Shown here piece by piece: positions 10,129-16,629 of a stretch of 64,000 bases of DNA. How positions within the stretch are numbered: position 1 is the first letter of the stretch; every line of letters begins with the position of its first letter. A program made the translations under genes and the position numbers. The DNA comes from Verrucomicrobiia bacterium (GTDB lineage Bacteria; Verrucomicrobiota; Verrucomicrobiia; Verrucomicrobiales; DEV007). The notes below the pieces were generated by a model. It was not told the origin of the DNA. It saw nothing but the letters and a program-made list of their open reading frames with translations, and ran no database searches. The stretch spans positions 62,001 to 126,000 of the forward strand of contig JAUICH010000005.1 in assembly GCA_030427505.1 (NCBI GenBank), in the 5' to 3' direction.

Positions 10129-10191
10129 TTGCTTGAGACGGCATTGATCTAGCTTACCTCTATTCATTTCAAGTGCGGTCTTTACAAACAT

Positions 10192-10340
10192 TGTTTTTGG
10201 TAATTATAATATTACCAAAATATTATGGATCATAAATTTTTCTCGAATTAGATTTTCAAATTTGCTATATTTTTTACTTTCAAAGCCGATCCAGCTATTA
10301 CACAAAAGTTAAATTGTAATCTGCCCGACCCACTTAATCG
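10192..10340. promoter_or_regulatory. AT-rich divergent promoter region between cysS and the FHA gene
   Basis: This stretch is much richer in A and T than its surroundings. A TATAAT on the plus strand (10205-10210) and an overlapping TATAAT on the minus strand (10203-10208) are plausible -10 elements for the two divergent transcripts. No convincing TTGACA partner is seen at the right distance for either. Confidence 0.4.
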
Positions 10341-10385
10341 ATGATAGCAGCTTCCACCTCACGGCGTTCCAGAAATTCTACGCTC

Positions 10386-13300
10386 ATGCTGTCGATCAAA
10401 ATCGGCAATGAGCCCACTGCCGTCTTCCCGATTGATGCTGGCACCGTCACCGTAGGCCGGCGGAAGGACAATCACATCGTACTGAAAGACCGGTTCATCT
10501 CTTCTTACCACGCCGAATTCCGCCGCCTGTCGGACGGCACCTATGAGATCGTCGACCGTGAATCCTTCAACGGCACCTTCGTCAACGGAGAGCGCGTGAC
10601 CCGCGCGAAAGTAAAAGCGGGCGACAACCTGAAGATCGGCACCATTCCGGCCCGCCTGATCTTGGAAGAGGGAGTGGTGGAAGATGCCCCGAGCGTCAGG
10701 GCGCCGCTCCAACTCCGCCCCCCGGTAGACTTTCACGAAGGGAACTCCCCCGATCTGAAGTTCCGGTCCTCCTCCCCCGCTCCGGAACTGCCGCTTTCTT
10801 CGGGCAATATCGAGTCCCGGATGGGGAACTTGCAGGCCCCGCCCTCTCAGAACTCCCTGGTCAGGATCAACAATCTGGAGCCGCCCAGAACCTCCGCCCC
10901 ACCTCGGCACGAAGACTTCGAAGCCAGGTCCGCCGCGCCGCAGGATTTCATGAGAAGAGATCCGTCCGATCAGAATTTCATCAATCACGAGCCGCCGAAG
11001 ATGCCACTTCTTCCTCTCGAAAGAGGCAACGAACTTTCTCACGGGGTCAGCCACCGGGAGGGCGGCGACCGCCTTCACCAGTTGGAGTCCGAGCTGGCCA
11101 ACGCCAAGGCCGAACTGGCCAAGGCTCGGCACCAGGATCCGTATTCCGATCGCGAATCGCATTCCCAGGCGCCGGATGCGTACCAGAACCGGGAAAGCCG
11201 CGAATCCGAACCGCTGCGGAGAGAACAGCGGGAGTTTGACGAGAGAACCCGCTCCGCCGAAGAGGAGTTGGCCGAGCTCCGGCGGAAACATGCTTCCTCT
11301 CAAGCGGGACGGGACAGAGTCCAGGGGCAAAGCTTCGAACCCGAAAAACCGCGGGGTCACTACGAACTCCATAGCCAGCTACACGGCGGCTCCGGTTCCA
11401 GCCTGGATGGACGGGACCCCGAGTTGCGCCAGGAACTCGAACGTCAAGGCCAAACCCAGCGCAATCTTGAGAACGAGAAGTACGCGCTCAACGAAGCCCT
11501 CACCAAGGCTCGCGAAGACGCGGATCGCCTGAGACAGGAAAAGTCCGCGCTGGAGGCCAGAACCTCCGAAATGCGGCACGACATCGAAAACCTGCACCAC
11601 CTGCGGGCAGAGTTGGAGCGGGCCCGGCAGGAAATCGCGAACAAGAACGCGGCCATCTCCGAACGGGACGCCCACATCGCCCAACTGGCGACGGACACCG
11701 AGTCCAGGCGCTACGAAGTCACCAACCTGGGACAGGAAGTCGCCACCCAGACCCAGATCATTTCAGGCAAGGAAGCGGAGTTGAATCAAACCCGGCGGCT
11801 GCTTCAAACCCGGGAAGAGGAACTGCAGAAACTCCGGGAAGAGATTGCCGGATTGTATCGCGACTTCGACAAGCTGCGCGGCGAACACGAGCAGGCCAGT
11901 TCCGCCGCGTCCGCGCAGTCCAGCCGGATCGCCAGCCTCGAACAGCAGTTGGAGGAACGGGCCAAGGCGTTCAAAGAGATCAGTCATCGCGCCAACCAGG
12001 ACAAGGAAGCCCTCGCGATCCGGGAGCACAAGATCGACTCCCTCACCGCCACCATCGAACGGCTCGAAGGCACCATCGCGGAGCGGGACAATCAGCTCCA
12101 CGCCGCGGCGGAAGAGCAGCGGAGCACTGAAGGCGATCTGGTCCAGTCCAACGAACAGATCGTGGCGCTCAATACCCGCATCTCGGAACTGGAAGAGGAA
12201 AAGAAAGGCCTGGAGTCAGATCTGGTCCAAACCAAGCAGGACGCGGACGACACCGTGGCCAAAGTCCAGACCACCTATGGCGACCTGAACCTCCTCACCG
12301 AAACGCTGACCGCCAAGCGGATGGAGGAAGAGAAGCTTTCCAAAGTCCTCGCCGACAAGGAAGCCACCATCCGCAGCCGCGAACTTCAGTTCGAAGAAGG
12401 CTGCAAGCGCCAGGAAGAACACTTTGCCAAACTCAAGGCCCAACACGAGGAAGCCTGCAAACAGCAGGACGCCGCGTTTGCCACCCGCAAAGCCCGCCAC
12501 GAGGAGGCCGTCCGCCAGCAGGAGGCCGAGTTCGAAACCCTGAAGGCTCAGCACCTGGAAGCCTGCCAGCAGCAGGAAGAGCACTTCGCCAACCTTCAGG
12601 AACAACACGAAGAAGCCTGGCGGCGGCAGGAAGAAAAATTCGCCAGCCTGGTGGCGCAGCACGCGGAAGTCATCGAGCAGCAGGATGCCGAACTCGCCGC
12701 CATGAAGGTGGAGTACGAGCACGCCCGGGAAGAACAAGAAGCCGAACTCGCCCATCGCAGAGCCCAGATTGAGGAAGAGCACCGCGAATACGAGGCACAG
12801 CTTTCCCAGGAAAAAGCCCGGATCGAAGAAAACTACCGCAATCACCTGGCGGACTTCGCCGCCCGGACCGCCCAGCTGGAAGAAGAACGCAAACAGCAGG
12901 AAGCGGAACTGGCCACCCTGAAATACCAGCACGAAGAAGCCTGCAAACAGCAGGAGGCTGACTTCGCCGCCCTGACCACGCGCCACGAAGACGCCTGCCG
13001 CCAGCAGGAAGCGGATTTCAAAGCCCTCACGGCACGGCGGGAAGCGGAACACGAGGAGGCTTGCCGCGAGCTCGAGTTCCAGTTCAACGAATTCAAGGCC
13101 CAGCTGGACCATTCGCGCAAACAGCTCGAAACCAAGTTCGCCGCCGACACCGAGCGGAGGGACAAGGAATGCCGGCAGCACGAAGCCGCCATCACGGCTC
13201 TCAAGACCGAGCAGGAACACGCCCGTCAGGTGCTTCAGGATCTGCAGGACGCCGCCGAGGAAAATCGCCGTCTCTCCGCGGAACTGGAACGCGAAGGCCA

Positions 13301-14456
13301 GACCCGCCACGCCTCCATCGAACAGCAGGTGAAGGCGGAACAGGAGAACCTGCACAAGATCGCATCCGGTCTCGCCGCGTCCGAAAGACAGCGCGCCGAC
13401 GTGGAAGAGTCGATCAAGGGTCTGGGCCGCCAGAAAGACAACCTCGAAACCCAGCTCGAAGTGCTGGGCGGGAAACTCGCCAAACTGAACGCGGAGATCG
13501 AGGCCAAGTCCGAGCTGCGCGAAGAACTGAACCGGGTCGAAAAACGCGCCCGCGAACTCGAAAAGCGGGAAGAGAAACTCTCCACCCGCGAGATGCGCGT
13601 CAAAGAACGGAAGGAAATCGAGCAGGCCGCCGAACAGCGCATCCGCGAGATCGAAAAAGCCGTTCGCGAGCGGGAGAAAGTCATGGCGCAATTCCAGACC
13701 GAAGCCGACGAGCGCATTAAAGAGGCCGACCGCGCCCTTCAAAAACGCCTGCTGGAACTGAAGATGGCGGAAGACCGCATCCACATGGCCGAACAAATGG
13801 ATTCCGAGATTGCGTCCAAGCAGAAGCGTCTCGACGAGATGAACGAAAAGCTGAACGACTACAGCGACTCCATCCAGCAGTTGCAAGGCGAGAGAAAGAC
13901 CCTGGAAGCCAACGTCAAGAAGTTCCAGTCCGGCGTGAATGCCGGCCCTGCCCCGCTGGCCAAAGCCGCTTCCAGAACCGTCGTTCCGGAAGACGTGGCC
14001 GCCGCCGAAAATCGCCTCAAAGAGATCCAGCAAAAAATCGAAGAGTGCGAGGACTACCAGCGCATTCTGCGGGAAGCCCTACGGCCGGACCAAGGCACGG
14101 TGCAGGTGCTCAGCCACCAGATCATCAAAAAGCTCGATCAACTGGAAGACCTCATCTACCGTTACAAAAAGAACAACCGGGGCGACGTCGTCACTCAGCT
14201 GGTTTCCCTGCGGGACAGCTTCCAGGACATCCTCAGCGATCATTCGGTCAAAGCTTTCACCTTTGCCCCGGGCACGGAACTCGACAAGAAGCGCCGCGAT
14301 CGCGTCGAGATCGTCGATACCCAATCCGTCTCGAAGAATGGAGATTCTTCGCCCCACATCATCGAAACGCTCCGGCCTGGCTACGTGGTGTGCGAGAACG
14401 GTAACGGAAGCGAAAAGGTTATCCGTAAGGCAGAGGTCATCGCAGCCAATACCTGA
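10386..14456 (+). CDS. FHA domain, long coiled coil and GrpE-like domain protein
   Basis: Start ATG 10386 is preferred because the FHA fold begins at once (MLSIKIG); the frame is open from an ATG at 10341. From the preferred start the protein has 1356 residues. Residues 1-90 are an FHA phosphothreonine-binding domain: G24-R25, DNHIVL, S39-S40-Y-H42, and N62-G63-T64. Residues about 95-240 are low-complexity and Pro-rich. About 240-1200 is almost uninterrupted coiled coil rich in Glu, Gln, Ala and Arg, including an 18-residue tandem repeat at 667-940. Residues about 1210-1356 resemble GrpE: a helical pair, then a beta-rich end (FTFAPGTELD, IIETLRPGYVV, VIRKAEVIAA). GrpE exchanges nucleotides on Hsp70. 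The next gene is an Hsp70, so the tail may act on it. There is no signal peptide. Confidence 0.78.
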   Translation: MLSIKIGNEPTAVFPIDAGTVTVGRRKDNHIVLKDRFISSYHAEFRRLSDGTYEIVDRESFNGTFVNGERVTRAKVKAGDNLKIGTIPARLILEEGVVEDAPSVRAPLQLRPPVDFHEGNSPDLKFRSSSPAPELPLSSGNIESRMGNLQAPPSQNSLVRINNLEPPRTSAPPRHEDFEARSAAPQDFMRRDPSDQNFINHEPPKMPLLPLERGNELSHGVSHREGGDRLHQLESELANAKAELAKARHQDPYSDRESHSQAPDAYQNRESRESEPLRREQREFDERTRSAEEELAELRRKHASSQAGRDRVQGQSFEPEKPRGHYELHSQLHGGSGSSLDGRDPELRQELERQGQTQRNLENEKYALNEALTKAREDADRLRQEKSALEARTSEMRHDIENLHHLRAELERARQEIANKNAAISERDAHIAQLATDTESRRYEVTNLGQEVATQTQIISGKEAELNQTRRLLQTREEELQKLREEIAGLYRDFDKLRGEHEQASSAASAQSSRIASLEQQLEERAKAFKEISHRANQDKEALAIREHKIDSLTATIERLEGTIAERDNQLHAAAEEQRSTEGDLVQSNEQIVALNTRISELEEEKKGLESDLVQTKQDADDTVAKVQTTYGDLNLLTETLTAKRMEEEKLSKVLADKEATIRSRELQFEEGCKRQEEHFAKLKAQHEEACKQQDAAFATRKARHEEAVRQQEAEFETLKAQHLEACQQQEEHFANLQEQHEEAWRRQEEKFASLVAQHAEVIEQQDAELAAMKVEYEHAREEQEAELAHRRAQIEEEHREYEAQLSQEKARIEENYRNHLADFAARTAQLEEERKQQEAELATLKYQHEEACKQQEADFAALTTRHEDACRQQEADFKALTARREAEHEEACRELEFQFNEFKAQLDHSRKQLETKFAADTERRDKECRQHEAAITALKTEQEHARQVLQDLQDAAEENRRLSAELEREGQTRHASIEQQVKAEQENLHKIASGLAASERQRADVEESIKGLGRQKDNLETQLEVLGGKLAKLNAEIEAKSELREELNRVEKRARELEKREEKLSTREMRVKERKEIEQAAEQRIREIEKAVREREKVMAQFQTEADERIKEADRALQKRLLELKMAEDRIHMAEQMDSEIASKQKRLDEMNEKLNDYSDSIQQLQGERKTLEANVKKFQSGVNAGPAPLAKAASRTVVPEDVAAAENRLKEIQQKIEECEDYQRILREALRPDQGTVQVLSHQIIKKLDQLEDLIYRYKKNNRGDVVTQLVSLRDSFQDILSDHSVKAFTFAPGTELDKKRRDRVEIVDTQSVSKNGDSSPHIIETLRPGYVVCENGNGSEKVIRKAEVIAANT
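12384..13205 (+). repeat. 15 tandem repeats encoding an 18-residue coiled-coil unit
   Basis: Inside the FHA protein gene there are twelve consecutive 54-base units (12384-13031), one 66-base unit (13032-13097) and two more 54-base units. Translated, the units follow the pattern A-Q-H-E-E-A-C-K-Q-Q-E-A-D-F-A-A-L-K. The most alike are those starting at 12438, 12492, 12924 and 12978. Eighteen residues equal five turns of an undistorted alpha helix (3.6 x 5), so each unit presents the same face. Confidence 0.85.
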
Positions 14457-14598
14457 CCGCCAGTTTTCCATTGTTCTCTTGAGAAAGCCGGAATTCCGTC
14501 ACTTTCGTAAGATTTCGGACAAATGACCCTTTAGGTTTTTTGAAAATCGGTTATTACAAGACTCGTCCTTGGCCCCTCTCAGTAGTCCCTGAATTAAT

Positions 14599-16086
14599 AT
14601 GGCGAAATACGTTGGCATTGACTTAGGAACCAGTACCTCGGGACTGGCCTATGTGCGTCCTGACGGTAATCCTGAGATCGTCCCCAACGCGGACGGCGAA
14701 CGTCTGACCCCCTCGGTCGTTTACTTCGACCAGTACGAAGGCATCAAGGTGGTGGGCTCCTCCGCGCGGGACGGAGGCGATCCGGACCGCACGGTTCACA
14801 ACATCAAGCGGCACATGGACGATCCGTCCTTCACGATCGAGATCGACGAACAGAAATGGACGCCGACGGAGATCTCCGCGATGATCCTTTCGAAGCTCAA
14901 GCGGGACTGTTCTCAGATCATCGGCGATATCAAAGAGATCGTGGTGACCGTTCCAGCCAACTTCAATGAGCTGGCGCGGAAAGCGACCGTGACGGCAGCC
15001 AAACTTGCCGGGCTCGGCGTTTCGCGCCTGGTGAACGAACCCACCGCTGCCGCCCTTTACTACGCCCAGTCCCGGAACATCGACGGCCGCGTCCTCGTTT
15101 ACGACCTGGGTGGAGGCACCTTGGACATCACGGTTCTGGAAATCGACGGCGACAATATCGACATCTTGCTTTCAGAGGGGGCCCGGCACCTCGGCGGCGC
15201 GAACTTCGACGAAATCCTGCTCGAAATCCTGGCCGACGAATATCGCAAGCAGAATGGCGCCGAGCTCTTCATCGATGAACGCCAGCGCCGCCGGGCGCTG
15301 ATGTTGGGAGAAGACGCCAAGAAGATGCTTTCCAAGCTCTACCGCATTACCGAGACGGTGGGCAATGACTCCGACGGCACCGCCCGGATCGAACTGAGCC
15401 GGGAAAACTTCGAAGCCGCCGTTTCCCGCCTTATCACCCGGACGATCATGCTGGTGGAACAGGCGCTGGATTCTCTGGATTTGAAGCCCTCCGACATCGA
15501 CCACGTCGTGCTGGTGGGTGGCAGCACGAGGATTCCCAAAGTTCAGCAGACCTTGGAGAAGTTCTTCGGGTTTTCCCCCATTTCCTGCGGAAACGTGGAC
15601 GAATGCGTGGCCCTCGGCGCGGCCCTTTTTGCCCAAAAAGCCCGCAAAGTATCGGAAGTCTGCAACATCAGCTACGGCACCCTGGCCTACATCGAAGATG
15701 CCCGGACCGGTACCGGTAGCATTCAAAATTCCATCGTCATTCCCAAGAACACCCCCATCCCGTGTTCCATGTCTCAGACCTACATCACGTCTGAGGACAA
15801 TGAAGAACTCATCGAGGTGGAGATCACTCAGGGAGAGGACAGCGATCCCCGCTACGTGGACATCATTGGAAAGATCGGGCTGGAGGTGCCTCCAGGCCGC
15901 CCGGCGGGTTGCGAGGTCACCGTGACTTACAGCTATGATGAGAACCAACGGGTTCACGCCCAGATTCTCGACGAACAGTCCGGACTTTCAAAAGACGTCT
16001 CCATCGAGTATAAAGGAGAGGGTGTTTTGTCGGACGAAGACATCGAGCGAAAGACTGCCTATCTGAAACAGATCAAGATCGCCTAA
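14599..16086 (+). CDS. Hsp70-family ATPase without helical lid
   Basis: A 495-residue Hsp70/DnaK homologue, about 140 residues shorter than DnaK. The nucleotide-binding domain (1 to about 360) has the phosphate-1 loop IDLGTSTSG (7-15), K70 in NIKRHM, VNEPTAAAL, and the phosphate-2 loop VYDLGGGTLD (167-176). VLVGGSTRIP near 310 is the adenosine motif. DnaK's T199 equivalent is Arg in ARHLGG. The conserved LLLD interdomain linker is absent; VCNISYGTLAYIE takes its place. Residues about 365-480 look like a reduced beta substrate domain, and no C-terminal helical lid follows. It lies 142 bases after the FHA/GrpE-like gene on the same strand. This suggests a dedicated chaperone or scaffold pair, not the general DnaK. 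Confidence 0.88.
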   Translation: MAKYVGIDLGTSTSGLAYVRPDGNPEIVPNADGERLTPSVVYFDQYEGIKVVGSSARDGGDPDRTVHNIKRHMDDPSFTIEIDEQKWTPTEISAMILSKLKRDCSQIIGDIKEIVVTVPANFNELARKATVTAAKLAGLGVSRLVNEPTAAALYYAQSRNIDGRVLVYDLGGGTLDITVLEIDGDNIDILLSEGARHLGGANFDEILLEILADEYRKQNGAELFIDERQRRRALMLGEDAKKMLSKLYRITETVGNDSDGTARIELSRENFEAAVSRLITRTIMLVEQALDSLDLKPSDIDHVVLVGGSTRIPKVQQTLEKFFGFSPISCGNVDECVALGAALFAQKARKVSEVCNISYGTLAYIEDARTGTGSIQNSIVIPKNTPIPCSMSQTYITSEDNEELIEVEITQGEDSDPRYVDIIGKIGLEVPPGRPAGCEVTVTYSYDENQRVHAQILDEQSGLSKDVSIEYKGEGVLSDEDIERKTAYLKQIKIA

Positions 16087-16128
16087 GCGCGCCTTTCATC
16101 GCGGCCGCCGCAAAGAAACGAGACAGCC

Positions 16129-16629
16129 ATGACGATCCGAAATCTCTGGAACAAGTTCCTCGGAAACGAGAAAGAAGAAGAGCCCGAATATCCCCCGGCT
16201 CCCGATTTGCTGGCGGAAGACTATCCGCCCATCGCTGAGCCTCCCCACACGGCTTCCCCTTTTCACCCTGAACCGGAGCCTTCCGGGGAGGAACCGGCCA
16301 TGGAACCCTCCTACGCTTATGAGGAGCCCGCCGCCACGCCCTTTACCCATCCGGAGCCGGAAGTGATTCCAGAGCCAGAGGCTCCCCAGCCCGTGGCCCG
16401 GCAACCCATTGACTTTTCTCAGCCTCTGACGGCATCTCCCGAAGAGCTCTGCGGCATCGACCCGGCCGCCATGAACCGGGACGAGATCCGGGCGCAGTTG
16501 GCCCTGCTCTACCGGCGCCACAATCACGCCGCCGGCAGCCTGAACAAAGAGCTTCGGGACGAGGCGGAAATGATGCTCGACGCCATCGTCATTTGCCGCG
16601 AGCGCTACGTCACGGCTGAGCTGAAGTAA
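16129..16629 (+). CDS. Acidic Pro/Glu-rich protein of the FHA-Hsp70 locus
   Basis: A 166-residue protein of unknown function, 42 bases downstream of the Hsp70 gene. Residues 1-20 form a short amphipathic helix (NLWNKFLGNEKEEE). Residues 20-100 are a disordered Pro/Glu linker. Residues about 103-166 (from SPEELCGIDPAAM to VICRERYVTAELK) look like a small helical domain. There is no signal peptide and no HPD motif, so it is not a J-protein. Position suggests a client adaptor or partner of the Hsp70, but no family was recognised. Confidence 0.65.
   Translation: MTIRNLWNKFLGNEKEEEPEYPPAPDLLAEDYPPIAEPPHTASPFHPEPEPSGEEPAMEPSYAYEEPAATPFTHPEPEVIPEPEAPQPVARQPIDFSQPLTASPEELCGIDPAAMNRDEIRAQLALLYRRHNHAAGSLNKELRDEAEMMLDAIVICRERYVTAELK

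Follow-up and report, generated by a model that had tools for sequence, protein, structure and literature searches.

Several described systems pair an Hsp70 with partner proteins in ways that resemble the locus analysed here. In the DnaK/DnaJ/GrpE trio, the linker residues of DnaK boost the ATPase of its NBD 40-fold, and the HPD motif of DnaJ touches linker residue L391 as well as R167, with HPD and the VLLLD linker in contact with each other (PMC8215388). DnaK that lacks its lid has peptide on and off rates 10–100 times faster (PMC7083937). In the eukaryotic RAC, Ssz1 is a lidless Hsp70 with a complete SBD-beta, a changed linker and a J-domain-type partner, Zuo1 (PMC7083937). However, Ssz1 binds ATP and does not hydrolyse it, the J-domain of Zuo1 works on another Hsp70 (Ssb), and RAC has no GrpE or FHA part. 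Pam16 (Tim16), which acts with Pam18 in the mitochondrial import motor, has a J-like fold in which no HPD is functional; the motor also includes an Hsp70 and an exchange factor of the GrpE type, and contains neither an FHA domain nor a coil. Among the specialised Hsp70s of bacteria, HscC has a dedicated J partner (DjlB/DjlC) that is membrane-associated, and it carries a 4–8 residue L1,2 insertion and a lobe I deletion (PMC8215388); it retains a lid and is believed to work without GrpE. Lastly, a truncated Hsp70 and DnaJ fusions occur together with Hsp70 and GrpE in the gene neighbourhoods of GAP1-N2 GTPase conflict systems (Kaur et al. 2020, PMC7159879), but these systems are centred on a GTPase and an FNIII protein, and their truncated Hsp70 lacks the entire peptide-binding domain. 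A published description that combines FHA, GrpE, DnaK and a coiled coil in the sense set out below was not found in the open-access papers searched, in keeping with a preliminary description of this DNA that had recognised no described system with such a layout, and the three-gene set is apparently undescribed.

The set lies in a 64,000-nucleotide stretch of DNA (the window, meaning the whole stretch that was analysed) and consists of three real, co-directional open reading frames on the + strand, the strand of every window coordinate given here. Gene 1 (10386–14456, 1356 aa) fuses an FHA domain, a probably disordered linker, a long coiled coil and a GrpE. Gene 2 (14599–16086, 495 aa) encodes a lidless Hsp70 (PF00012, 9.9e-100), and gene 3 (16129–16629), an ORF call that adjoins the Hsp70 in orthologous loci, encodes its small 166-aa partner. 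The gaps between the genes are 142 nt and 42 nt. An alternative ATG for gene 1 lies upstream at 10341; the start at 10386 (MLSIKIG...) fits because the FHA domains of orthologues start a few residues in. Upstream of gene 1 is a sigma-70-like promoter-like site, TTTACA-18-TATAAT (10181–10210), which agrees with the consensus at 11 of 12 bases and is a consensus match only, three such sites having been found against 1.4 expected. No known RNA family was detected at the locus. The locus is probably a complete but altered DnaK/DnaJ/GrpE trio: its Hsp70 and GrpE correspond to the canonical parts by homology, its third protein probably corresponds by a J-like fold, and the ATPase residues are intact. 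Unlike in the canonical trio, the Hsp70 has neither lid nor VLLLD linker, the GrpE is fused to an FHA domain via a long coil, and the J-like domain has no HPD. It also exists alongside a complete canonical set, with grpE, dnaJ and dnaK located apart from it in the same genome.

The case for such a trio begins with the tail of gene 1, where a GrpE-like end had been proposed at about residues 1210–1356; profile comparison and predicted structure both match GrpE, and we place the domain at residues 1207–1352 (14004–14441). PF01025 scores 31.5 bits on the isolated tail (cut-off 25.8) and 29.8 bits in a six-frame search; on the whole gene 1 protein the score is 24.9 bits, just under the cut-off. 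Homologous tails match it in 21 of 28 cases (best 2.3e-12). When the tail profile was compared with PDB sequences, the first match was a GrpE (4ani_A, E 3.9e-7). AlphaFold2 modelled the last 240 residues with a pLDDT of 90.8 as a long helix, three further helices and then six strands, and all seven Foldseek matches of this model at E < 0.001 were GrpE chains (probability 1.00, E 1.4e-5 to 4.9e-4). VIA-align placed the tail on E. coli GrpE (1dkg_A) with Z 12.8 over 144 residues and an rmsd of 14.4, a value that is large because the long helix is oriented differently; with M. tuberculosis GrpE (8gb3_E) it gave Z 10.1 and an rmsd of 2.6 over 100 residues. As modelled, the tail is a true GrpE fold, and gene 1 tails keep the GrpE beta-domain with strongly conserved residues (GY, LRKAEV). 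Tail matches outside the order at E < 1e-4 were weak and covered the helical part only (profile positions 2–121 of 227), and hence were not counted as fusions. GrpE dimerises via a parallel pair of N-terminal helices, so the gene 1 coil would continue the GrpE stalk. A separate canonical GrpE is present in all 13 relatives checked, as well as in the genome of the locus, which makes the fused copy a dedicated one; one lineage nevertheless does without it, and elsewhere it may serve a different Hsp70. At G003:C18:124814–125323 and 125371–126804, a relative has yet another stand-alone GrpE-like gene beside a gene for a 623-aa Hsp70, and the two form an additional DnaK/GrpE paralogue pair.

At the opposite end of gene 1, the FHA domain first described at residues 1–90 (10386–10655) is matched by Pfam (3e-17, residues 21–85). 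It keeps R25, S39 and N62, and R25, S39, H42, N62 and G63 occur in 53 of 53 aligned homologues. The invariance of these phosphopeptide residues makes phosphothreonine binding plausible. Between the two folded ends, the coil is shorter than the roughly 960 residues originally given. Nearly all prolines in this region fall in residues 91–345 (10656–11420), a Pro/Gly-containing segment that is probably disordered, judging from its composition per 50-residue block. None falls in residues 346–1187 (11421–13946), the 842-aa coil, which composition and the long AlphaFold2 helix within the modelled part indicate to be helical. Heptad periodicity (period 3.5) is strong at residues 350–650 and 960–1190. 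An 18-residue repeat occupies residues 656–960, with identities of 0.35, 0.31 and 0.29 at lags of 18, 36 and 54, and suggests that coil length changes through gain and loss of repeats. If helical throughout, the 842 residues would span about 125 nm. Matches of gene 1 to PADLOC JetC/LmuB and NCBIfam SMC models were confined to the coil and were judged to be coiled-coil similarity.

Gene 2 has 2v7y_A as its closest solved relative (E 7.1e-86) and, unlike HscC, scores highest against DnaK models. The ATPase residues D8, K70, E171, D194, T199 and D201, plus R167 and N170, are each present in 72 of 72 aligned lidless Hsp70s, in contrast to the non-hydrolysing Ssz1. The earlier reading of an Hsp70 with neither helical lid nor LLLD linker extends to the whole family: the SBD-alpha lid is absent in 71 of 71 full-length orthologues, and DVLL(LD) is replaced by EVCN (15655–15666), each of whose four residues is found in 72 of 72. 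The canonical DnaK of the same genome has DVLLLD, and the DnaK-type VLLLD linker is absent from the lidless Hsp70s. The linker is followed by a complete SBD-beta (15667–16083) with a 4-residue insertion near L1,2, and the protein stops before the helical lid, where residue ~522 of the genome's own DnaK aligns. Its subdomain IIB loop is also shorter than in that DnaK. Orthologues are 65–82% identical throughout Verrucomicrobiales. From the published behaviour of the DnaK linker and of lidless DnaK, we infer that this Hsp70 binds clients weakly and rapidly and that its cycle departs from the standard one; it would probably be an ATP-dependent holder more than a refolding engine.

Gene 3 had been taken for a small, acidic, Pro/Glu-rich linker protein. 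The Pro/Glu-rich segment is there and is variable, but the protein is more than a linker, since a conserved domain makes up its last ~65 residues, and M115, L124, R130, N132, S137, L138 and L150 in this domain are invariant (n = 52 sequences). AlphaFold2 gives this domain (residues 100–166, 16426–16626) a short helix at 104–108 and helices at 117–135 and 140–161, with pLDDT > 90 over most of it. The top two Foldseek matches are J-domains, 2ctw (probability 0.89) and 2qsa (0.85), at E 0.7–0.9 and thus not individually significant, and most of the first seven matches are J-domain proteins, each at E 0.7 or more. VIA-align with the J-domain 6rzy_A gave Z 6.3 and an rmsd of 3.4 over 65 residues, tied with unrelated ribosomal L29-type proteins; with Tim16 (2guz_B) it gave Z 5.3 and an rmsd of 2.4 over 59 residues. 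Comparison of the gene 3 profile with the J-domains of relatives by hhalign scored 18.2 (P 0.0065), a score reached by none of 150 column shuffles and exceeded by one of 81 unrelated windows, and paired LCGI...YRRHN of gene 3 with ILGV...KYHPD of the J-domain. By eye, DnaJ residues 6–57 are spaced like gene 3 residues 104–156 with one insertion, and the invariant N132 falls at H33 of HPD. Searches of gene 3 against Pfam (including DnaJ), PDB sequences, PHROGs and PADLOC returned no usable match. The domain is probably a degenerate J-domain, which the preliminary description overlooked, and we consider true J ancestry somewhat more likely than not. Because none of 51 dereplicated orthologues has an HPD motif, we term gene 3 J-like and not a J-protein. 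Its N-terminus (MTIRNLWNKFLG, 16129–16164) is a basic amphipathic helix and a probable membrane anchor. Family means are a hydrophobic moment of 0.65 against 0.34 for shuffled sequences, with 3.0 K/R and 0.2 D/E per 11 residues, the mean being somewhat inflated by the choice of the best-scoring start Met for each protein; AlphaFold2 places a helix at residues 4–10 with low confidence. The presence of such a terminus throughout the family suggests peripheral membrane binding.

The spread of these genes bears on whether they work together. An SBD-beta profile scan of 84,980 species genomes found 93 relatives; 80 loci were kept, all consistent with Verrucomicrobiales. A few bins labelled Akkermansia muciniphila probably reflect automatic naming, since family f2 of the same order, which forms the bulk of the complete-genome sample, has no lidless Hsp70 gene. 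The three genes were found to co-occur in relatives across Verrucomicrobiales, a point left for checking when the locus was first described. Neither this check nor the comparison of the tail with GrpE, both proposed with the preliminary description, refuted it. An automatic rule placed gene 3 directly 3' of gene 2 in 75 of 77 loci (median gap 29 nt), and inspection of the remaining two, L088 and L143, found it within an over-extended ORF. Presence of the Hsp70 and of gene 3 agrees in 53 of 57 relatives (both in 26; Fisher p 8e-12, kinship uncorrected), and the four discordant cases are mostly at contig ends. Of the partners of the Hsp70, gene 3 is the most constant, a point that was likewise overlooked. 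The immediate upstream neighbour of the Hsp70 is gene 1 in 57 of 70 loci (median gap 43 nt). Twelve genomes were searched among the 13 loci without a direct upstream copy, and eight have gene 1 elsewhere; the thirteenth locus, L113, is a second copy in G018, a genome with a complete set. This genome, to which L073 and L074 belong, holds two Hsp70–gene 3 pairs; what precedes the second (L074 8660–11985) is an ammonium-transporter-like gene instead of FHA-GrpE. Presence of the Hsp70 and of the GrpE tail agrees in 41 of 57 relatives (Fisher p 0.001).

The composition of gene 1 is itself variable. Complete ORFs range from 294 to 2086 aa, and the lengths of all orthologues lie between about 280 aa, in proteins that lack a coil, and about 2,090 aa. 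The coil-less forms, in genus g4, are FHA-GrpE fusions of 276–294 aa with the Hsp70 and gene 3 downstream of them (L063 8268–9152, L071 5914–6744). Since the coil is absent there and its length is otherwise free, long reach is a variable and not the core function, and the data give no support to the weight that it had been given as a general principle. In genus g7 (G006, G020, and L109 in G475), FHA-coil genes without a GrpE end stand beside the Hsp70 and gene 3 (L065 9647–12874, L066 9131–12265, L109 3578–6712), and the g7 genome searched (L109/G475) gave no GrpE-tail match. Conversely, 11 of the 57 relatives, including the single-contig genome G040, have the tail without a lidless Hsp70. Consequently, the GrpE end and the lidless Hsp70 are not obligate partners. 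One genus has FHA-GrpE and no lidless Hsp70; the product of the next gene there is ~146 aa long and contains paired cysteines (CPTC...CEEC) as well as probable membrane helices (L061 3032–3475, L076 8669–9109). Elsewhere, seven loci have another FHA-domain gene upstream of the cassette (L163 2–631, L140 1–678 and five more), and a single 335-aa frame in G019 (L086 4537–5544) consists of FHA, a partial GrpE tail and the SBD of the Hsp70, with no NBD, probably through a deletion or an assembly join. The flanks of the 80 loci yielded no conserved fourth gene (kinase, phosphatase or GTPase). Recurrent neighbours such as cysS and a pseudouridine synthase look like shared synteny.

The reading we place first, at about an even chance of being right, is a second Hsp70 machine that is addressed by phosphorylation, with the fused GrpE exchanging nucleotide and the FHA domain supplying the address. 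Gene 3 would probably sit on the membrane via its amphipathic helix, and its degenerate J-domain would probably hold the lidless Hsp70 as a stable pair. The Hsp70 would keep its ATPase and, without lid and canonical linker, probably bind clients weakly and fast. Gene 1 is expected to form a GrpE-like dimer: its pair of GrpE heads would attach to the NBD of the Hsp70 and carry out nucleotide exchange, and a pair of FHA heads, at the other end of the stalk, would bind a phosphothreonine of a kinase-marked partner. A Ser/Thr kinase signal would then bring the module to a particular site or keep it there. The original suggestion, a tether between exchange activity and a phosphorylated site, remains plausible. 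This model draws on the GrpE fold, the FHA and ATPase residues, the co-occurrence of Hsp70 and gene 3, the linkage of gene 1, the separate canonical GrpE, the J-like signal and the joint absence of HPD and VLLLD; against it stand the g7 genes, the tail-only relatives, the shorter IIB loop, the weak J matches and the lack of a conserved kinase neighbour. A more specific version is tentative. Both HPD on the J side and VLLLD on the Hsp70 side are absent from the set, and the trigger formed by these two elements may have been dismantled on both sides, leaving a membrane-tethered pair that is reset by an FHA-stalked GrpE at phosphothreonine sites, as a switch run by a Ser/Thr kinase.

That one genus has lost the GrpE end, with FHA-coil, Hsp70 and gene 3 persisting, speaks for an alternative, a scaffold that performs no nucleotide exchange. 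Its GrpE end would be a dimerisation and docking head, and its coil would serve structurally, as a rod or filament. An ATP-switched adaptor composed of the lidless Hsp70 and gene 3 would be attached to it, and the FHA domain would direct it to a phosphorylated site, for example a complex at the division site, the pole or the membrane. The extreme variation in coil length points the same way, and the altered linker and missing lid argue against a normal chaperone cycle. However, every ATPase residue checked is invariant, and a GrpE beta-domain with conserved GY and LRKAEV exceeds what a dimer clamp needs. We regard this scaffold as possible, at roughly one chance in four.

The relatives that carry the FHA-GrpE tail without a lidless Hsp70, together with the several genomes in which gene 1 is unlinked from the Hsp70, could also mean that gene 1 is a second, phospho-localised GrpE of the housekeeping DnaK, and that the lidless Hsp70 and gene 3 are a regulatory pair of their own, with nothing but the operon in common with gene 1. 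Against this, gene 1 is the immediate upstream neighbour of the lidless Hsp70 in most loci and their presence is associated, and we consider such a division of labour unlikely. That these are decaying Hsp70 paralogues, neighbours by chance with no common function, would account for the loss of lid, linker and HPD relative to the canonical proteins, but is refuted by the conservation of sequence across the order, of catalytic residues and new linker in all 72 proteins, and of synteny, and its probability is negligible.

Set against the described systems, the addressed Hsp70 machine would work most like a cross between RAC, with its lidless Hsp70 and J partner, and an Hsp70 motor at a membrane, but with a GrpE and an FHA reader that are missing from those combinations. 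The likeness to Pam16 is one of fold, no sequence relationship having been shown, and the cassette has no Pam18 homologue. As for the GAP1-N2 systems, no GTPase or FNIII gene recurs as a neighbour in the 80 loci, and PADLOC matches neither the Hsp70 nor gene 3. Because the set is present in the cultured genera Brevifollis and Verrucomicrobium, as well as in Prosthecobacter MAGs, it is open to experiment. If the model is true, it would provide a direct physical link from Ser/Thr phosphorylation to the Hsp70 cycle in bacteria, one in which the addressing part is the exchange factor and not the J-protein. The order-wide occurrence of natural lidless Hsp70s with a new invariant linker and intact ATPase residues offers a natural experiment on which parts are needed for Hsp70 allostery.
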